Shown here: positions 52,859-58,526 of the stretch, one piece after another
How positions within the stretch are numbered: position 1 is the first letter of the stretch
Layout: every line of letters begins with the position of its first letter
Source: Chloroflexota bacterium
GTDB taxonomy: Bacteria > Chloroflexota > Anaerolineae > Anaerolineales > Villigracilaceae
DNA length: 64,000 bases
Direction: 5' to 3'
Assembly: GCA_016213105.1 (NCBI GenBank)
Contig: JACRBN010000026.1
Location: 372,001 to 436,000 of the forward strand
Translations under genes and position numbers: made by a program
The notes under the pieces: generated by a model
Database searches by the model: none
Told to the model about the DNA's origin: nothing
Seen by the model: the letters and a program-made list of their open reading frames with translations, nothing else

Positions 52859-52908
52859 CGGTCACAAATTGCGCCTTTTTGAAGCAGGGAAAGCGCAATT
52901 TGTGACCG
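52859..52908. repeat. 16-bp perfect inverted repeat
   Basis: Arms cggtcacaaattgcgc (52859-52874) and gcgcaatttgtgaccg (52893-52908) flank an 18-nt spacer and stand just before a TATAAT. It may be an operator or a repeat remnant. Confidence 0.6.
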
Positions 52909-53187: not shown

Positions 53188-53616
53188 ATGAGTTATCAAA
53201 CCATCATAGTTGCTGGCAACCTGGGGCGTGACCCTGAAATGCGATATACCCCATCCGGCCAGGCCGTTACCAGTTTTTCAGTGGCGGTCAATGAAAATTA
53301 CACCAATAATAATGGCGAAAAAGTCAAAAAAACCATCTGGTTCAAAATTTCAGCCTGGGGTAAACAAGCTGAGATCTGTAATCAGTACCTGAAGAAGGGT
53401 CAGATGGTGTTGGTGGAAGGACGCATGACTGCCGACCCGGCTACCGGGGGCCCGCGAATATGGGCGGCTCAGGATGGCACAGCGCGCGCTTCGTTTGAGA
53501 TTACGGCTACCACGGTGCGCTTCCTCTCATCGCGTAATGAGACCGGGGGCGGCCCCGTGGCCGGCGATATGATGGGTGGAGCCGAACTCCCGCCCGAAGA
53601 CGATATCCCGTTCTAA
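53188..53616 (+). CDS. ssb: Single-stranded DNA-binding protein
   Basis: The 142-aa protein has the SSB OB-fold (IIVAGNLGRDPEMRYTPSGQAVTSFSVAVNE, then WFKISAWGKQAE and KKGQMVLVEGRM) and the acidic C-terminal tip PEDDIPF, which recruits partner proteins. TTGGAGG precedes the ATG. It heads a compact five-gene cassette. Confidence 0.96.
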   Translation: MSYQTIIVAGNLGRDPEMRYTPSGQAVTSFSVAVNENYTNNNGEKVKKTIWFKISAWGKQAEICNQYLKKGQMVLVEGRMTADPATGGPRIWAAQDGTARASFEITATTVRFLSSRNETGGGPVAGDMMGGAELPPEDDIPF

Positions 53617-53628
53617 CGGCCGGCGCCC

Positions 53629-53955
53629 ATGGCAACCCCACCCAAACCGGTTGGCCCCAACCTGGTCATGCCCCCGGGCCTGGAGCCGATCTACGCCAAT
53701 CTGGCGCGCATCTCCCATTCCCCGGCCGACCTGGTGATCGACTTTGCCCAGCTTCTGCCCGGTGAAATGCAGGCCAAGGTCATGGCGCGCGTGTTGATGA
53801 CGCCGCTCAGCGCCAAGCTATTCCTGCGCGCGCTGGCCGAAAACATCGCCCGCTATGAAGCCTCCTTTGGCGAGATTAACGTGCCGAGCAATTCCTCGCT
53901 GGCTGAGAGCCTCTTCCGCCCGCCCCATCCCCCCAGCCCGCCCACATCCGAGTGA
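53629..53955 (+). CDS. DUF3467-family protein
   Basis: The 108-aa protein follows the DUF3467 pattern: PIYANLARISHSPADLVIDFAQLLPG, then ARVLMTPLSAKLFLRALAENIARYEASFGEI, with a Pro-rich tail. These small proteins are widespread and of unknown function. The gene starts 12 bp after ssb and is followed 3 bp later by the translin homologue. Confidence 0.85.
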   Translation: MATPPKPVGPNLVMPPGLEPIYANLARISHSPADLVIDFAQLLPGEMQAKVMARVLMTPLSAKLFLRALAENIARYEASFGEINVPSNSSLAESLFRPPHPPSPPTSE

Positions 53956-53958
53956 ACC

Positions 53959-54648
53959 GTGCATAAACTGGAAAGCATTACCGAACAAATCCGTCATGGA
54001 TTCGACGCCCGCAACGCCGCGCGTGACAAGGCGCTGGCCACGGCCCGCCAGTTGACCCGCGCCTGCTCACTCGCCATCCGCGCCGTGCATCGCAGCGACA
54101 CGGAAACGATGACCGCCCACCTGACCGAGGCCCGCTCCCTGGCTGACGCCCTGCACACCGACCTGAAGAATCACCCCGACCTCTTCTACGCCGGCTACAC
54201 CCAGGATGCGCTCAAGGAATTTGTGGAGGCCAACGTGACCTGCGCCTTGATCCAGGGCCAGCCCCTGGTCACGCCGCAGGAACTGAACGTGGCCGACGCC
54301 ACCTACCTGAACGGCCTGGCCGAAGTGGTGGGTGAACTGCGCCGCCGCACGCTCGATATTTTGCGTCACGGCTATTCCGCCGAGGCCGAGCGTCTGCTGG
54401 GCATCATGGACGATATCTATTCGGTGCTGGTCACCATGGATTACCCCGACGCGATCACCAACGGCCTGCGCCGCCAGACCGACCTAGCGCGCGGCATCAT
54501 CGAGAAGACCCGCGGCGACATCACCTTCAGCCTGCGCGGGCAGCACCTCGAACAAGCCATCGGGCGGTTGATCGCCCAATATAACGTCGACCCGGCTTCG
54601 GGGTCCGCAACGGGGGATTCGGCCTTCGCCCAAGACCGGGAGGACTGA
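53959..54648 (+). CDS. Translin-family protein
   Basis: The 229-aa all-helical protein matches the translin fold: EFVEANVTCALIQ, a middle YLNGLAEVVGELRRRTLDIL, and the C-terminal DYPDAITNGLRRQTDLARGIIEKTRGDIT, the most conserved translin block. Translins form ring-shaped oligomers binding single-stranded DNA and RNA; translin/TRAX complexes act as RNases. It starts with GTG at 53959. Placement in an ssb operon fits a single-stranded nucleic-acid role. Whether nuclease residues are present I cannot judge. Confidence 0.8.
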   Translation: MHKLESITEQIRHGFDARNAARDKALATARQLTRACSLAIRAVHRSDTETMTAHLTEARSLADALHTDLKNHPDLFYAGYTQDALKEFVEANVTCALIQGQPLVTPQELNVADATYLNGLAEVVGELRRRTLDILRHGYSAEAERLLGIMDDIYSVLVTMDYPDAITNGLRRQTDLARGIIEKTRGDITFSLRGQHLEQAIGRLIAQYNVDPASGSATGDSAFAQDRED

Positions 54649-54650
54649 GC

Positions 54651-55268
54651 ATGGCGCGGGCTGGCCGTCGCTATCCGCTCCTCATGTACACCCGCATGAT
54701 GGATCGCTGGTGGCCGGCTGCGTTCACCCTGGGGTTGGCCTTGTTTGCGCTGGCCTGGGCCGTGTGGAGTTACTATCCCATTCCCGCCTATGACTGGCAG
54801 TGGGTAACCCTGTCTGGTGTGGGCGGGTTTGCGTTGGTTGTCTCCATGTTCATGTTTACCCTGCGCAAGGGCGCCTACGTCCAGCCCCATTCAGACCACC
54901 TGCGGCTGGTCACACCCTTCCTGCGCCTGAACATTTCCTACAAACGCGTGCGCCGCTCCAGTTCCACAACCATGGAAGCCTTGTTCCCGCCCAGGAGCGT
55001 CTCCAGTTGGAGGCGCGACATCGTCGAGCCGCTGGCCCAAAAAACCGCCGTGGTGGTGGAGTTGACCGGCTATCCCATTTCCCAGTTCGTCTTGAAATTC
55101 TTCCTTTCCCCGTTCTTCTTCAAAGATAAGACTCCGCATTTTGTCCTGCTGGTGGAGGATTGGATGCGCTTCAGCACCGAACTCGAGACCATGCGGACCG
55201 GGGGAGCCACGGAAACCCCGCGCAAGCGTGTGGATAAATCCATCCTTTCGCGGCTGCCGCACAAATGA
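54651..55268 (+). CDS. Two-helix membrane protein, unknown
   Basis: The 205-aa protein has a basic N-terminus, two membrane helices (about 23-43 and 54-76) and a soluble beta-rich region with basic stretches (KRVRRSSSTTMEALFPPRS). It may be PH-like, but I cannot assign a family. The start is 2 bp after the translin stop and its 3' end overlaps the next gene by 4 bp, so it belongs to the cassette. Confidence 0.7.
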   Translation: MARAGRRYPLLMYTRMMDRWWPAAFTLGLALFALAWAVWSYYPIPAYDWQWVTLSGVGGFALVVSMFMFTLRKGAYVQPHSDHLRLVTPFLRLNISYKRVRRSSSTTMEALFPPRSVSSWRRDIVEPLAQKTAVVVELTGYPISQFVLKFFLSPFFFKDKTPHFVLLVEDWMRFSTELETMRTGGATETPRKRVDKSILSRLPHK

Positions 55269-55684
55269 ACATTTACTTTGCCTGTTCGATCAGCGGTGGA
55301 CGGGAGTTTGAATCCGTTTACCAGACCATGGTCGCCGCCCTGGGCGCGGACGGCCACCAAATCCCCACCTTTGGGCTGGCCCAACCCGGCGTGACGGAGG
55401 AGGCAGTCTTGGAGCCGCATTTCGTCTATGAGCGTGACACCTCCTGGATCCGCGCCTGCGACGTGTTGGTGGCCGAAGTGAGCGTGCCCTCGCATGGCGT
55501 GGGCTACGAGATCGCCTACGCGCTGGGGCAGGGCAAACCCGTGCTGTGCCTGGCCCTGCAAGGACGCAGGGTTTCGAAGATGCTCACCGGCAACGCCGAC
55601 CCGCTGCTGCGGGTGGAGTTCTACTCCACGGTCGAGGCTGGGATTGAGATGACAAGAGATTTCCTAAGTAGCTTTAACTTGTGA
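55265..55684 (+). CDS. DNPH1-like 2'-deoxynucleoside 5'-phosphate N-hydrolase
   Basis: The 139-aa protein resembles the Rcl/DNPH1 branch of nucleoside 2-deoxyribosyltransferases: MNIYFACSISGGRE, YERDTSWIRACDVLVAEVSVPSHGVGYEIAYA. Asp58, Asp66, Glu71 and Glu82 are candidate active-site residues. DNPH1 cleaves the glycosidic bond of deoxynucleoside monophosphates, preferring modified bases, and so cleans the nucleotide pool. Its ATGA overlap with the previous gene and the shared operon with ssb and translin suggest a role in DNA maintenance. Confidence 0.8.
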   Translation: MNIYFACSISGGREFESVYQTMVAALGADGHQIPTFGLAQPGVTEEAVLEPHFVYERDTSWIRACDVLVAEVSVPSHGVGYEIAYALGQGKPVLCLALQGRRVSKMLTGNADPLLRVEFYSTVEAGIEMTRDFLSSFNL

Positions 55685-55901: not shown

Positions 55902-57353
55902 CTATGCGTCCTGTGCGGGGAGTACTACAAAGAAGGAAGTCCCTTTTCCCAGAGCCGATTCCACCCAGATGCGCCCGTGGTGGCTTTCCACGATGGACTT
56001 GACGATGGCCAATCCCAGGCCCGAGCCTTGCGCGCCGTCCGGGACGTTGCTGGCGCGATAGAATTTGTCGAAGATGCGGGCCTGTTCGTTTTGCGGAATG
56101 CCCGGCCCGGTGTCGCTGACTTGCAGGATGATCTGCCTGTCCCGCGAGGCCACACCGACCTGGATTTTGCCGCGTTCGGGGGTGTACTTGATGGCATTGC
56201 CCACCAGGTTATCGAGCAACTGGCGGATGCGGATGGGGTTGGCGCGCAGGGGGGGGATGTCGGCGCCGATGATCGGGACCAGGGCGATCTTTTTGTTGTG
56301 CGCCTGGTTCTCGAACGTGTCGAGCGTGTACTTGAGCACGCTTTCGATGTGGACCGATTCGCGGCGTGTATCGAAGCCGGCCTCGATCCGCTCCAGGTCG
56401 AGCAGGTCGTTGACCAGGTTGGTGATGTGCTGCACGCTGGATTGGATGCGCTGGAGAAATTCGCGCTGCTGCTCGTTGAGCGGCCCGATGCGGTCCATCA
56501 ACTCCGTGTATCCCAGCAGGGCTGTCAGCGGGGAACGCAGATCGTGCGAGACCGTGTGGACGAAATCATTCTTCATGCGGTCCAATTCCTTCAGATAGGA
56601 AATGTCCTGCATGGTGATGGCCGAGCCGATGCCAGGAATGGGGGTGACCTGGGCGTTCAACACCTGCCCGTTATCCAGGTTGATCTCGTGATATTTGAGC
56701 GGTCCGCCCGCCGCGCGTGTGAGCAGGGTGCGTATGTCGGGGTGGGAGATTACCTCCAGCAGGGGCTTGCCTGTGATGTCATTGGATCCCAGCCCAAAGA
56801 TGTCGTGGATGGAGGGGTTGAGGAACAGAATGGCATTCTCGCGGTTGAGCACGATCACGCCGTCCTGGATGTTCGAGAAAATGGCTTCGAAACGCGAGCG
56901 CTCGTTTTCCGATAACTTGGCGCGTTCCTCCAGCGAGGCGGTGGTCATCTTGACCTGGCGGCGCAGCCAGTCTCCCAGGCTGCGGGCGCGGGCCATGCTG
57001 CGGTTGACCGCCTCCACGATGTCGTCCATGCGCAGGGGCGGACACAGATACCCGCTCAGGCCGGCCAGCAATACCTCCTTGGCCAGTCCGCTCGTATCCT
57101 TTTCAGAATAGAGCAGCACCGGCAGGGTTGGGAACCGCTCCAGCATGTTGGCGGAGAGTTTCAGTCCCTGTTCGCCGGCAAAGACCTCCCCGACCAGGAC
57201 AAGCGCGGGGCTGGACTCGTGCAGGGCCTTTTCGAGGGAGGCCACATCCTGCACCACGGCGATTTCATATTGCGCCGCGCGCAAAGCACGCCCCATGAGT
57301 TGCAGAAGGGGAGAGTCATCAAGTGCAAGCAGGATAAGGTCGGGTTTTACCAT
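55902..57353 (-). CDS. Sensor histidine kinase with degenerate N-terminal receiver and PAS
   Basis: The 483-aa soluble protein has an N-terminal receiver-like fold (residues 1-120) lacking the phosphoacceptor: the strand LVLVGEVF has Gly55/Glu56 where Asp is expected. A PAS domain follows (FEAIFSNIQDGVIVLNRENAILFLN), then the H-box TVSHDLRSPLTALLGYTELM and the ATPase with N-box RQLLDNLVGNAIKYTPERG, DTGPGIP and GSGLGLAIVKSIVE. It autophosphorylates at the H-box His. It is coded 33 bp after the receiver-GAF protein, its likely partner. Confidence 0.92.
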   Translation of the reverse strand: MVKPDLILLALDDSPLLQLMGRALRAAQYEIAVVQDVASLEKALHESSPALVLVGEVFAGEQGLKLSANMLERFPTLPVLLYSEKDTSGLAKEVLLAGLSGYLCPPLRMDDIVEAVNRSMARARSLGDWLRRQVKMTTASLEERAKLSENERSRFEAIFSNIQDGVIVLNRENAILFLNPSIHDIFGLGSNDITGKPLLEVISHPDIRTLLTRAAGGPLKYHEINLDNGQVLNAQVTPIPGIGSAITMQDISYLKELDRMKNDFVHTVSHDLRSPLTALLGYTELMDRIGPLNEQQREFLQRIQSSVQHITNLVNDLLDLERIEAGFDTRRESVHIESVLKYTLDTFENQAHNKKIALVPIIGADIPPLRANPIRIRQLLDNLVGNAIKYTPERGKIQVGVASRDRQIILQVSDTGPGIPQNEQARIFDKFYRASNVPDGAQGSGLGLAIVKSIVESHHGRIWVESALGKGTSFFVVLPAQDA

Positions 57354-57386
57354 GCAATCAGGTTTCAGCGTTTTGAAGTAAGGGGA

Positions 57387-58526
57387 CTAGGTCTTTTCGT
57401 TGACGCGGGCCAGGCGTGTGACAGCATCCTGCACCGATAGAAGCGCCTGCTTTTGTTCACTATTGAGCTGCCCTGGCATTTCGGTCAGGACAAGGTTGAG
57501 CGGGTAACTGGCCGCCTGTAATTCCTTCGCCAGCGTCTCGCGCATGCTCTTGAGCTGCGCATTCTGGCGCTTCTCGCTTTCGTGGGCGGTTTCGGCAGAT
57601 TGCTCCAGCGCGCGGAACAAGCGGGCATTGACCAGGGAGGTCGAGGCAAAATCCGCAATCGCTTCGAGCAGGGCCTGTTCATCCCGCCCGATTTCACGAT
57701 CCGCCTTGCGCACGACGATCAACAGGCCGATGACCTCGTTTTGGACCTTGATGGGGATGACGCCAGCCGTCTTCCCGAGCGCCGCCACCTTGAATTTTTG
57801 CAGGGGAGGTCCGTGCATGATGAGCGTTTCCCCCGAAAGCCCCACCAGCGAGCTGATGCCGTCGTCCATCGGCTGGTTGTGTTTCTTGGCCCAGCCCGTG
57901 GGCAGGTTGCGGTCAGCGGTGAGCAGGAACTGGCGGGTCTTGTCGTCGCGCAGCATCAGCCAGCCGATTTCAGCATCCGCCACTTGCAGGGCGCCTTCGA
58001 TGATGCGGTCGAAGAGCTGGCGCTGATTGGTGATCGAGACCATCGCCCGCGCGACCCCCAGGATGGTGGTCAACTGCTGGACTTTGCGTTTTAGTTCGTT
58101 GTTGATATCCTTGAACTTCTGGTCCAGTTGATGGCGGGCGCGGGATTCGCGGGTCTGTTTGAGCGCCCGTTCCACCACGGCCACCACCTCCGCGTCGCGG
58201 GCGGGCCAGAACAGCACGTCGCTGGCCCCCAGGCGGAAGGATTGAATAACGTCCGCCTCCTGTCCCTTTTCGGCCACCAGGATGACCGGCGCGGTGATGT
58301 TCTGCGAAGAGAGCGCCACCAGCAGATCCTTGGCGCTCAGGCCGGGCAGGTTCAGGTCGGCGATGACCAGGTCCGGGCTGGCAAAAATCGCCTGTTGCAG
58401 GGCCGATCCGGCTTCAGATGCAAGCGTCACTTGATAGCCCAGAGGCTTAAGCGCCTGTCGGGCTATCAAATCGCTGATGTCAAGATCATTTTCCACGACC
58501 AGAATGCGTTCATTAACGGGAGCCAT
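57387..58526 (-). CDS. Response-regulator receiver with GAF domain
   Basis: The 379-aa protein has a receiver with phosphoacceptor Asp57 (VIADLNLPG) and acidic Glu12/Asp14 pocket, but the usual Lys before the last beta-turn is Trp107 (LFWPA). A coiled-coil leads to a GAF domain (residues about 160-320) and a C-terminal helical tail. No DNA-binding output is seen, so signalling may be by protein contact, probably with the downstream kinase. Confidence 0.88.
   Translation of the reverse strand: MAPVNERILVVENDLDISDLIARQALKPLGYQVTLASEAGSALQQAIFASPDLVIADLNLPGLSAKDLLVALSSQNITAPVILVAEKGQEADVIQSFRLGASDVLFWPARDAEVVAVVERALKQTRESRARHQLDQKFKDINNELKRKVQQLTTILGVARAMVSITNQRQLFDRIIEGALQVADAEIGWLMLRDDKTRQFLLTADRNLPTGWAKKHNQPMDDGISSLVGLSGETLIMHGPPLQKFKVAALGKTAGVIPIKVQNEVIGLLIVVRKADREIGRDEQALLEAIADFASTSLVNARLFRALEQSAETAHESEKRQNAQLKSMRETLAKELQAASYPLNLVLTEMPGQLNSEQKQALLSVQDAVTRLARVNEKT

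Follow-up and report, generated by a model that had tools for sequence, protein, structure and literature searches.

What does a relative of translin do when its gene stands close behind that of a single-stranded DNA-binding protein (SSB) in a bacterial genome? The question is raised by five plus-strand genes at 53188-55684 of a 64,000-nucleotide stretch of Chloroflexota DNA (contig JACRBN010000026.1 of assembly GCA_016213105.1, forward-strand positions 372,001 to 436,000), referred to here in its whole length as the window. The genes encode, in order, an SSB, a protein of the DUF3467 family, a translin-superfamily protein of the TRAX type, a membrane protein and a DNPH1-type hydrolase. To our knowledge, the cellular role of prokaryotic TRAX is open, and a TRAX–SSB block found across an order of bacteria offers a concrete handle on whether TRAX acts at single-stranded DNA. 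DUF3467, whose name occurs in a single paper of the literature searched, is likewise placed in a genomic setting by the block.

An earlier note on the window, made from its sequence, had described the five genes as a compact cassette for single-strand maintenance or nucleotide sanitation, perhaps linked to the membrane. All five open reading frames (ORFs) were confirmed on the plus strand, with intergenic distances of 12, 3, 2 and -4 bp. Here we show that the core of the block is ssb–DUF3467–TRAX, an order-wide unit, and that the membrane protein and DNPH1 genes are family-level additions, since ssb and DUF3467 are kept beside TRAX in other families of the order and the latter two genes in none.

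A three-gene core kept across the order

Scanning of genome contigs with the third protein of the block (TRAX) gave 187 places, and the best 80 of the 187 were kept as the set representing the window's family. TRAX identity is 67-83% in these 80 loci; among 61 related genomes it is 66-85% for those of the family and 51-62% for those of other families. By tblastn, ssb and DUF3467 are each present in 78 of the 80 family loci (the ssb count including a 23-residue match in L081), whereas the membrane gene has 76 and DNPH1 47 matches (two of the latter being fragments). The ssb, DUF3467 and TRAX genes lie in this order, on the same strand and within 1.2 kb in 78/80 loci, and in the remaining two (L068 and L090) the contig ends just before the gene. 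This association is far beyond chance. The earlier note had made its proposal depend on the genes being adjacent in more than this genome, and the synteny search found a compact and conserved block throughout the family.

The membrane gene follows TRAX in 75 of the 78 loci with room for it and is absent in L100, L101 and L109; in L100 and L101, DNPH1 comes after TRAX. Among the 75 loci that have both the membrane gene and sufficient room, DNPH1 is intact in 43, a fragment in 2 and absent in 30. Median spacing in the family is 74 bp between ssb and DUF3467, 6 bp between DUF3467 and TRAX, 4 bp between TRAX and the membrane gene, and -4 bp between the membrane gene and DNPH1. The last value reflects a 4-bp overlap, which 40 of 44 measured loci show and which is found also at the start of the DNPH1 gene in the window. 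The gap between ssb and DUF3467 is at most 60 bp in 25 of 77 measured loci, the 12 bp of the window being unusually short. Such spacing suggests that the operon is read as one transcript.

Neighbouring genes provide the background for these counts. The commonest gene upstream of the block is present in 24/80 family loci, and among genes more than 1 kb upstream, clustered more loosely, the commonest occurs in 18 of the 65 loci whose upstream sequence extends to 4 kb or more. Since upstream genes are so poorly kept, retention is specific to the block on this side. Downstream, a convergent relative of a sensor kinase lies near TRAX in 61/80 loci, and part of the downstream conservation is therefore ordinary family synteny.

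TRAX itself reaches much further. The earlier note had called translin rare in bacteria; in Chloroflexota the gene is common, and of the TRAX type. A phylum-wide sample of 251 genomes has it in 138 (103/185 of those of good quality), with a single match in all but one of the 138. Among the 61 related genomes it is present in 57, the window's own included and one on the strength of a 37-residue match, and in 50 of the 51 of good quality. The Pfam model PF01997 (Translin) had no match in ten control genomes of other bacterial phyla, the same model missing the window's genome.

Sixty regions outside the family were picked for spread, comprising 20 from the same order (12 families), 9 from the class and 31 from the phylum; some, phylum ones included, have short flanks. 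The ssb gene lies upstream of TRAX in 20/20 order loci, 1/9 class loci and 0/31 phylum loci, and DUF3467 is beside TRAX in 18/20, 3/9 and 0/31, respectively, while the membrane gene and DNPH1 occur in 0/60. Partial arrangements are found in the class, where DUF3467 precedes TRAX without ssb (L144-L146) or directly follows an SSB gene with no adjoining TRAX (L180). The five-gene cassette of the earlier note thus survives order-wide in its first three genes and is narrower in the others, the membrane gene being seen only in the family set, where intact DNPH1 accompanies it in just over half of the loci. DUF3467 is present in 38 of 201 phylum genomes (35 over cut-off) and is therefore not required wherever TRAX occurs.

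The phylogeny of TRAX was examined with 141 sequences (81 from the family, 20 from the order and 40 from elsewhere in the class and phylum). The 81 family sequences (80 plus the window) form one clade with support 0.78, the order is not one clade, with 5 class sequences falling inside it, and 110 class sequences form one clade with weak support (0.21). The ssb–DUF3467–TRAX unit would have been assembled within the class, TRAX itself being older in the phylum.

Two further neighbourhoods were observed. Near TRAX, a gene for a long membrane protein, proton-pyrophosphatase-like by eye, is present in 10 of the 31 phylum regions outside the class (L156, L159, L161, L162, L164, L165, L171, L175, L176 and L177). 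In another Chloroflexota family (L198, L200, L206 and L207), DUF3467 is followed by genes that appear by eye to encode coiled-coil-like and RNase-H-like proteins; of the genomes concerned, G085 (L207) gave no TRAX match, the genomes with matches include neither G225 nor G296, and G311 was unsampled.

The proteins of the block

The TRAX gene (53959..54648, plus strand, GTG start) encodes a protein of 229 aa, the best solved relatives of which are AfTrax and NEQ131. In a phmmer search against the PDB, it matches AfTrax (3zc1) at 2.7e-22 over residues 9-190. The profile of 35 members matches AfTrax at 9.9e-39, NEQ131 (5jr9) at 7.1e-16, and the TRAX chains of human and fly C3PO (3pja, 3riu and 3axj) at 8e-6 to 2e-5, while no translin chain of human or fly C3PO was matched by this profile at E<=0.01. 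By these relationships, the "translin" of the earlier note is of the TRAX type and not translin. PF01997 matches the protein at 8e-5 and 23.1 bits, under the Pfam cut-off of 25.9, and NF011160 at 1.1e-77 and 260 bits, under the curated cut-off of 291; NF011160 is matched by 35/35 Chloroflexota members at E<=0.001 (best 2.9e-104). Judged by these scores, both models look narrow. The product name of the NCBIfam entries NF011156-NF011161 (PRK14562.1-5), "haloacid dehalogenase superfamily protein", hides the kinship with TRAX and looks misleading, given the homology to AfTrax.

We take the catalytic set of TRAX to be E, E, D, E, including human residues E126, E129 and D193. In the Chloroflexota proteins, E87, E90, E122 and E126 are candidate catalytic acids and are invariant in 141/141 sequences. 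All four candidate positions are acidic but read E, E, E, E, whereas AfTrax has Asp at the third. This residue, presumably D114, aligns with E122, and is Asp in chain 3zc1 and Ala in 3zc0. PMC9246224 describes Glu197 of human Trax as a catalytic residue of the RNase, and by the GEL motif it would correspond to E126 here. Because the four glutamates are invariant where TRAX has its catalytic acids, the window protein is probably a metal-dependent RNase. No second translin-superfamily gene was found in the genome with TRAX as query, a search that a distant translin could escape, and a homo-oligomer is therefore expected.

The first gene of the block (53188..53616, plus strand) encodes an SSB of 142 aa (PF00436, E=1.6e-30; TIGR00621, 8.4e-35), one of three in the genome. 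A separate copy lies in an rpsF–ssb–rpsR arrangement at G000:C23, the operon SSB being the second tip-bearing copy, and the third SSB has no IPF tip at its end. The C-terminal tip in the window is EDDIPF; the IPF ending is present in 78/78 aligned operon SSBs (window included), with at least 2 acidic residues just before it in 72/78. Its sequence identifies the operon protein as an OB-fold SSB with an acidic docking tip, paralogous to the housekeeping copy. Two core members thus come from families that bind or cut single strands, in keeping with the single-strand theme of the earlier note.

DUF3467 is encoded at 53629..53955 (plus strand) as a protein of 108 aa (PF11950, 5.2e-21, 74.9 bits vs a gathering threshold of 25), present as a single copy in the genome and with 24 invariant columns among 48 sequences. 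An AlphaFold2 model from these 48 sequences has a predicted local distance difference test score (pLDDT) of 73 and a predicted template modelling score of 0.54. Comparison of the model with the PDB by Foldseek and VIA-align gave no convincing fold match (best Z 2.2), and a sequence profile gave no credible relative there.

The membrane protein (54651..55268, plus strand, 205 aa) has no Pfam family at E<=0.1, bPH models included, and no NCBIfam family, and its sequence profile has no credible relative in the PDB. Its AlphaFold2 model, of good confidence (pLDDT 88), has two N-terminal helices, at about 11-41 and 45-71, and after them a PH-like domain. In fold comparison, PH-like chains match best (Z up to 9.6), with many PH, PTB and FERM domains at 8.6-9.5; the bacterial PH-domain protein 3dcx gives Z 8.9 and a root-mean-square deviation of 2.0 over 80 aligned residues. 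Foldseek matches are weak (best E 0.04). The model supports assignment to the PH-like fold class, from which no function follows. The earlier description of a membrane protein without known role still stands, with the amendment that a PH-like fold can be recognised in the soluble part.

The last gene (55265..55684, plus strand) encodes a DNPH1/Rcl-type 2'-deoxynucleoside 5'-phosphate N-hydrolase of 139 aa (PF05014, Nuc_deoxyrib_tr, 3.2e-13), which matches Rcl (2khz) in the PDB at 4.5e-20 by phmmer, as well as DNPH1 structures. D58 and E82, which we take to be the catalytic pair of DNPH1, are kept in 46/47 aligned sequences, with a gap in the remaining one.

Upstream of the block, a palindrome at 52859-52908 has 19-bp arms (95% complementary) and a 12-bp spacer. 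A search of the window's genome for the 15-bp core of these arms, allowing variable loops, gave 6 places, compared with 0 for a reversed-pattern control, and the palindrome is a dispersed hairpin like the repetitive extragenic palindromic elements. Terminator-like sites between 52700 and 56000 are near the shuffled level (6 vs 3.5 expected). Adjoining the operon downstream, at 55902-58526 on the minus strand, are genes for two convergent sensor proteins, a response-regulator-PAS-histidine kinase and a response-regulator-GAF protein.

A split Cas4-like nuclease next to TRAX in other families

In other families of the order, the place after TRAX is commonly taken by a nuclease gene divided in two. 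The N-half comes next after TRAX, at most 190 bp from its stop, in 15 of the 20 order loci (L118-L137), representing 10 of 12 families; it has about 80 residues, with the N-terminal motif of Cas4 (one Cys, 'CrRAWwyr') and a C-terminal hydrophobic stretch. The C-half then follows in 13/20 loci, with about 170 residues and an N-terminal hydrophobic stretch; its PD-(D/E)XK core reads 'GkPDYLv...iPVEVK', and its three cysteines lie in 'RC..CG...C'. The two halves are near TRAX in 3/9 class loci (in one case 1.7 kb away) and in 0/31 phylum loci. The C-half scores over the Pfam cut-offs for Cas_Cas4 and PDDEXK_1, and the N-half below them (E 0.0009 and 0.009). A consensus of 48 N-halves and 46 C-halves shows the nuclease motif and all four cysteines kept in at least 90%, and a 19-residue segment with a mean hydropathy of at least 1.6 is present in 47/48 N-halves and 46/46 C-halves.

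Also repeatedly met near TRAX, farther downstream, are clusters of NAD kinase, B-box and RecN-like (SMC_N) genes, in 14, 12 and 11 of the 60 outside loci, respectively, the naming being based on one member checked per cluster; annotated in this way, the neighbourhood is of a DNA-repair type. The window's genome also encodes the Cas4-like pair, away from the operon at G000:C14 (L178:400-639 and 1336-1848) and before an NAD kinase gene. Both halves are present in 30/30 family loci fetched, and the C-half in 54/61 relatives. On the simplest reading, ssb–DUF3467–TRAX would formerly have been joined to the Cas4-like–NAD kinase cluster; the window's family would have parted the two, and TRAX would there have gained the PH-like gene and DNPH1 as neighbours. 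The membrane link proposed in the earlier note is supported by both arrangements, with two helices and a PH-like domain here and a split nuclease with predicted helices in other families.

Between the two Cas4-like halves of the window's genome lies a 209-residue ORF (L178:674-1303) with no Pfam family, possibly HEAT-like by eye. Relatives of this ORF occur in 4 of the loci searched, namely L208 (in the same place), L210, L213 and L230.

The closest known system for the pair is solo-Cas4. Solo-Cas4 genes, outside CRISPR loci, are described from many Chloroflexi in PMC5704561, and share the Cas4-like PD-(D/E)XK core and cysteines; the gene met here differs in being split, each of its halves having a predicted membrane helix of its own. 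The main text of that paper uses none of the words "split", "transmembrane" and "translin". The split, membrane-anchored pair was not found in the literature searched, which left most subscription journals beyond its reach.

Possible roles of the operon and comparison with known systems

What, then, might the operon do? The reading we prefer, tentatively and as somewhat short of an even chance, is that Anaerolineae have inherited this operon vertically and that its core of SSB, DUF3467 and TRAX processes nucleic acid at single-stranded sites. SSB would coat exposed single-stranded DNA, and its acidic tip and/or DUF3467, acting as an adaptor, may bring in the TRAX oligomer. Holding metal ions through its four invariant glutamates, TRAX would degrade short or single-stranded RNA at these sites, such as displaced transcripts, primers or R-loop remnants. 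The membrane-anchored partner encoded directly downstream would tie the process to the membrane; this would be the two-part Cas4-like Fe-S/PD-(D/E)XK DNase in the majority of the other families sampled, and the two-helix PH-like protein, in place of the Cas4-like pair, in the window's family. DNPH1, where present, would have an accessory part in removing abnormal deoxynucleoside monophosphates.

Several observations weigh against this proposal. In most of the phylum sampled, TRAX has neither ssb nor DUF3467 as a neighbour (0/31 regions outside the class, some with short flanks on one side), and it therefore has a function independent of the operon. DUF3467 is found in unrelated settings, for example beside a gene that is biotin-carrier-like by eye in L198 and L200. 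The Glu that replaces the Asp of AfTrax (E122) could weaken or change the activity. Promoter-like sites between 52700 and 56000 number 2 vs 1.4 expected from shuffled sequence, and none stands out before the operon. The genome-stability role of fission-yeast Translin is RNase-independent according to PMC9246224, so that RNase action on R-loops is not a given.

The main rival, a serious candidate although we would on balance not expect it, holds that these are co-transcribed housekeeping genes, the ancestral ssb–DUF3467–TRAX order being frozen by shared expression with no joint function. TRAX would then act in RNA turnover or tRNA-leader processing, and the SSB in ordinary replication work. This would suit the occurrence of TRAX over the phylum, in one copy in all but one of the 138 genomes that have it, the 31/31 regions outside the class that lack ssb and DUF3467 neighbours, and the retention of a neighbour from outside the operon, the convergent sensor kinase, in 61/80 family loci. 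The tie of archaeal TRAX to SepRS and endonuclease V, reported in PMC8762117, likewise favours it and speaks against the reading preferred above. It accounts less well for a three-gene core that has stayed together in 12 further families of the order while the upstream flank and the genes after TRAX change. Both DUF3467–TRAX (L144-L146) and ssb–DUF3467 (L180) pairs occur in the class, and the pairs therefore re-form or persist, rather than descending as one frozen block. A more elaborate and unlikely proposal is a membrane-tethered machine of Anaerolineae in which a dedicated SSB and DUF3467 would couple two nucleases that clear branches containing RNA and DNA at the membrane. One would be TRAX, as a homo-oligomeric RNase whose active site is all glutamate. 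The other would be the Cas4-like Fe-S DNase, made of two subunits and anchored in the membrane, and the ancestral cluster would have included RecN and NAD kinase; the window's family would have uncoupled the DNase and substituted a PH-like membrane protein, often with DNPH1.

The remaining explanations are less probable still. The nucleotide sanitation put forward in the earlier note would make DNPH1 an essential partner in a cassette for nucleotide-pool and single-strand sanitation. The 4-bp overlap of DNPH1 with the membrane gene, in the window as in most loci measured, and the conservation of D58 and E82 agree with this, but DNPH1 is missing or a fragment at 32 of the 75 family loci with room and is found in 0/60 regions outside the family; sanitation as the core function was rejected on these grounds, and a cassette of this kind is improbable. 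SsbB is the second SSB of competent bacteria, and the operon SSB is likewise a second, tip-bearing SSB. This similarity, and the membrane partners adjoining TRAX in both arrangements, would fit a membrane-located system that processes incoming or transforming DNA, combining a second SSB, a membrane-anchored nuclease or PH-like protein, and RNA/DNA clearing. No competence gene was recognised by eye in the neighbour clusters, where competence genes were not searched for, and we give this explanation a similarly slight chance. An anti-phage or anti-plasmid defence module, for which nucleases (the split one Cas4-like), an SSB and a membrane protein in one block might speak, is very improbable and was rejected. 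PADLOC models match 0/5 operon proteins at E<=0.01, and TRAX, present in 57/61 relatives and with a single family clade of 81 sequences, is unlike the patchy defence genes. The link to SepCysE/SepRS, suggested by PMC5424206, was also set aside, the TRAX–SepRS operon being archaeal and none being recognised among the recurrent neighbours; SepRS was not searched for in the genome.

All proteins of the block but the membrane one belong to known families. The ssb–DUF3467–TRAX combination was not found in the literature searched, most subscription journals being outside its reach. A paper by Gupta et al. in 2012 reportedly deals with translin in eubacteria. DNPH1 is like the DNPH1/Rcl N-hydrolases (4.5e-20, with D58 and E82 conserved) and differs from them in being linked to TRAX, an arrangement observed in the window's family only. 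The human and Drosophila C3PO (Translin-TRAX) RNase is homologous through its TRAX subunit, whereas here no second translin-superfamily gene was found with the TRAX query, which a distant translin could escape. Archaeal TRAX clusters with SepRS and endonuclease V, already published (PMC5424206 and PMC8762117), provide a precedent for prokaryotic TRAX clustered with nucleic-acid enzymes; among the recurrent neighbours here, inspected by eye without a scan, SepRS, SepCysS and endonuclease V were not recognised, and ssb and DUF3467 are found instead. The closest likeness is to AfTrax (3zc0 and 3zc1) and NEQ131 (5jr9), with near full-length homology and acidic residues at the catalytic positions, and Trax of N. 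equitans alone degrades RNA as an oligomer according to PMC9051087. Compared with these two proteins, Chloroflexota TRAX has Glu (E122) for Asp in 141/141 sequences, and has SSB and DUF3467 as its genomic partners.

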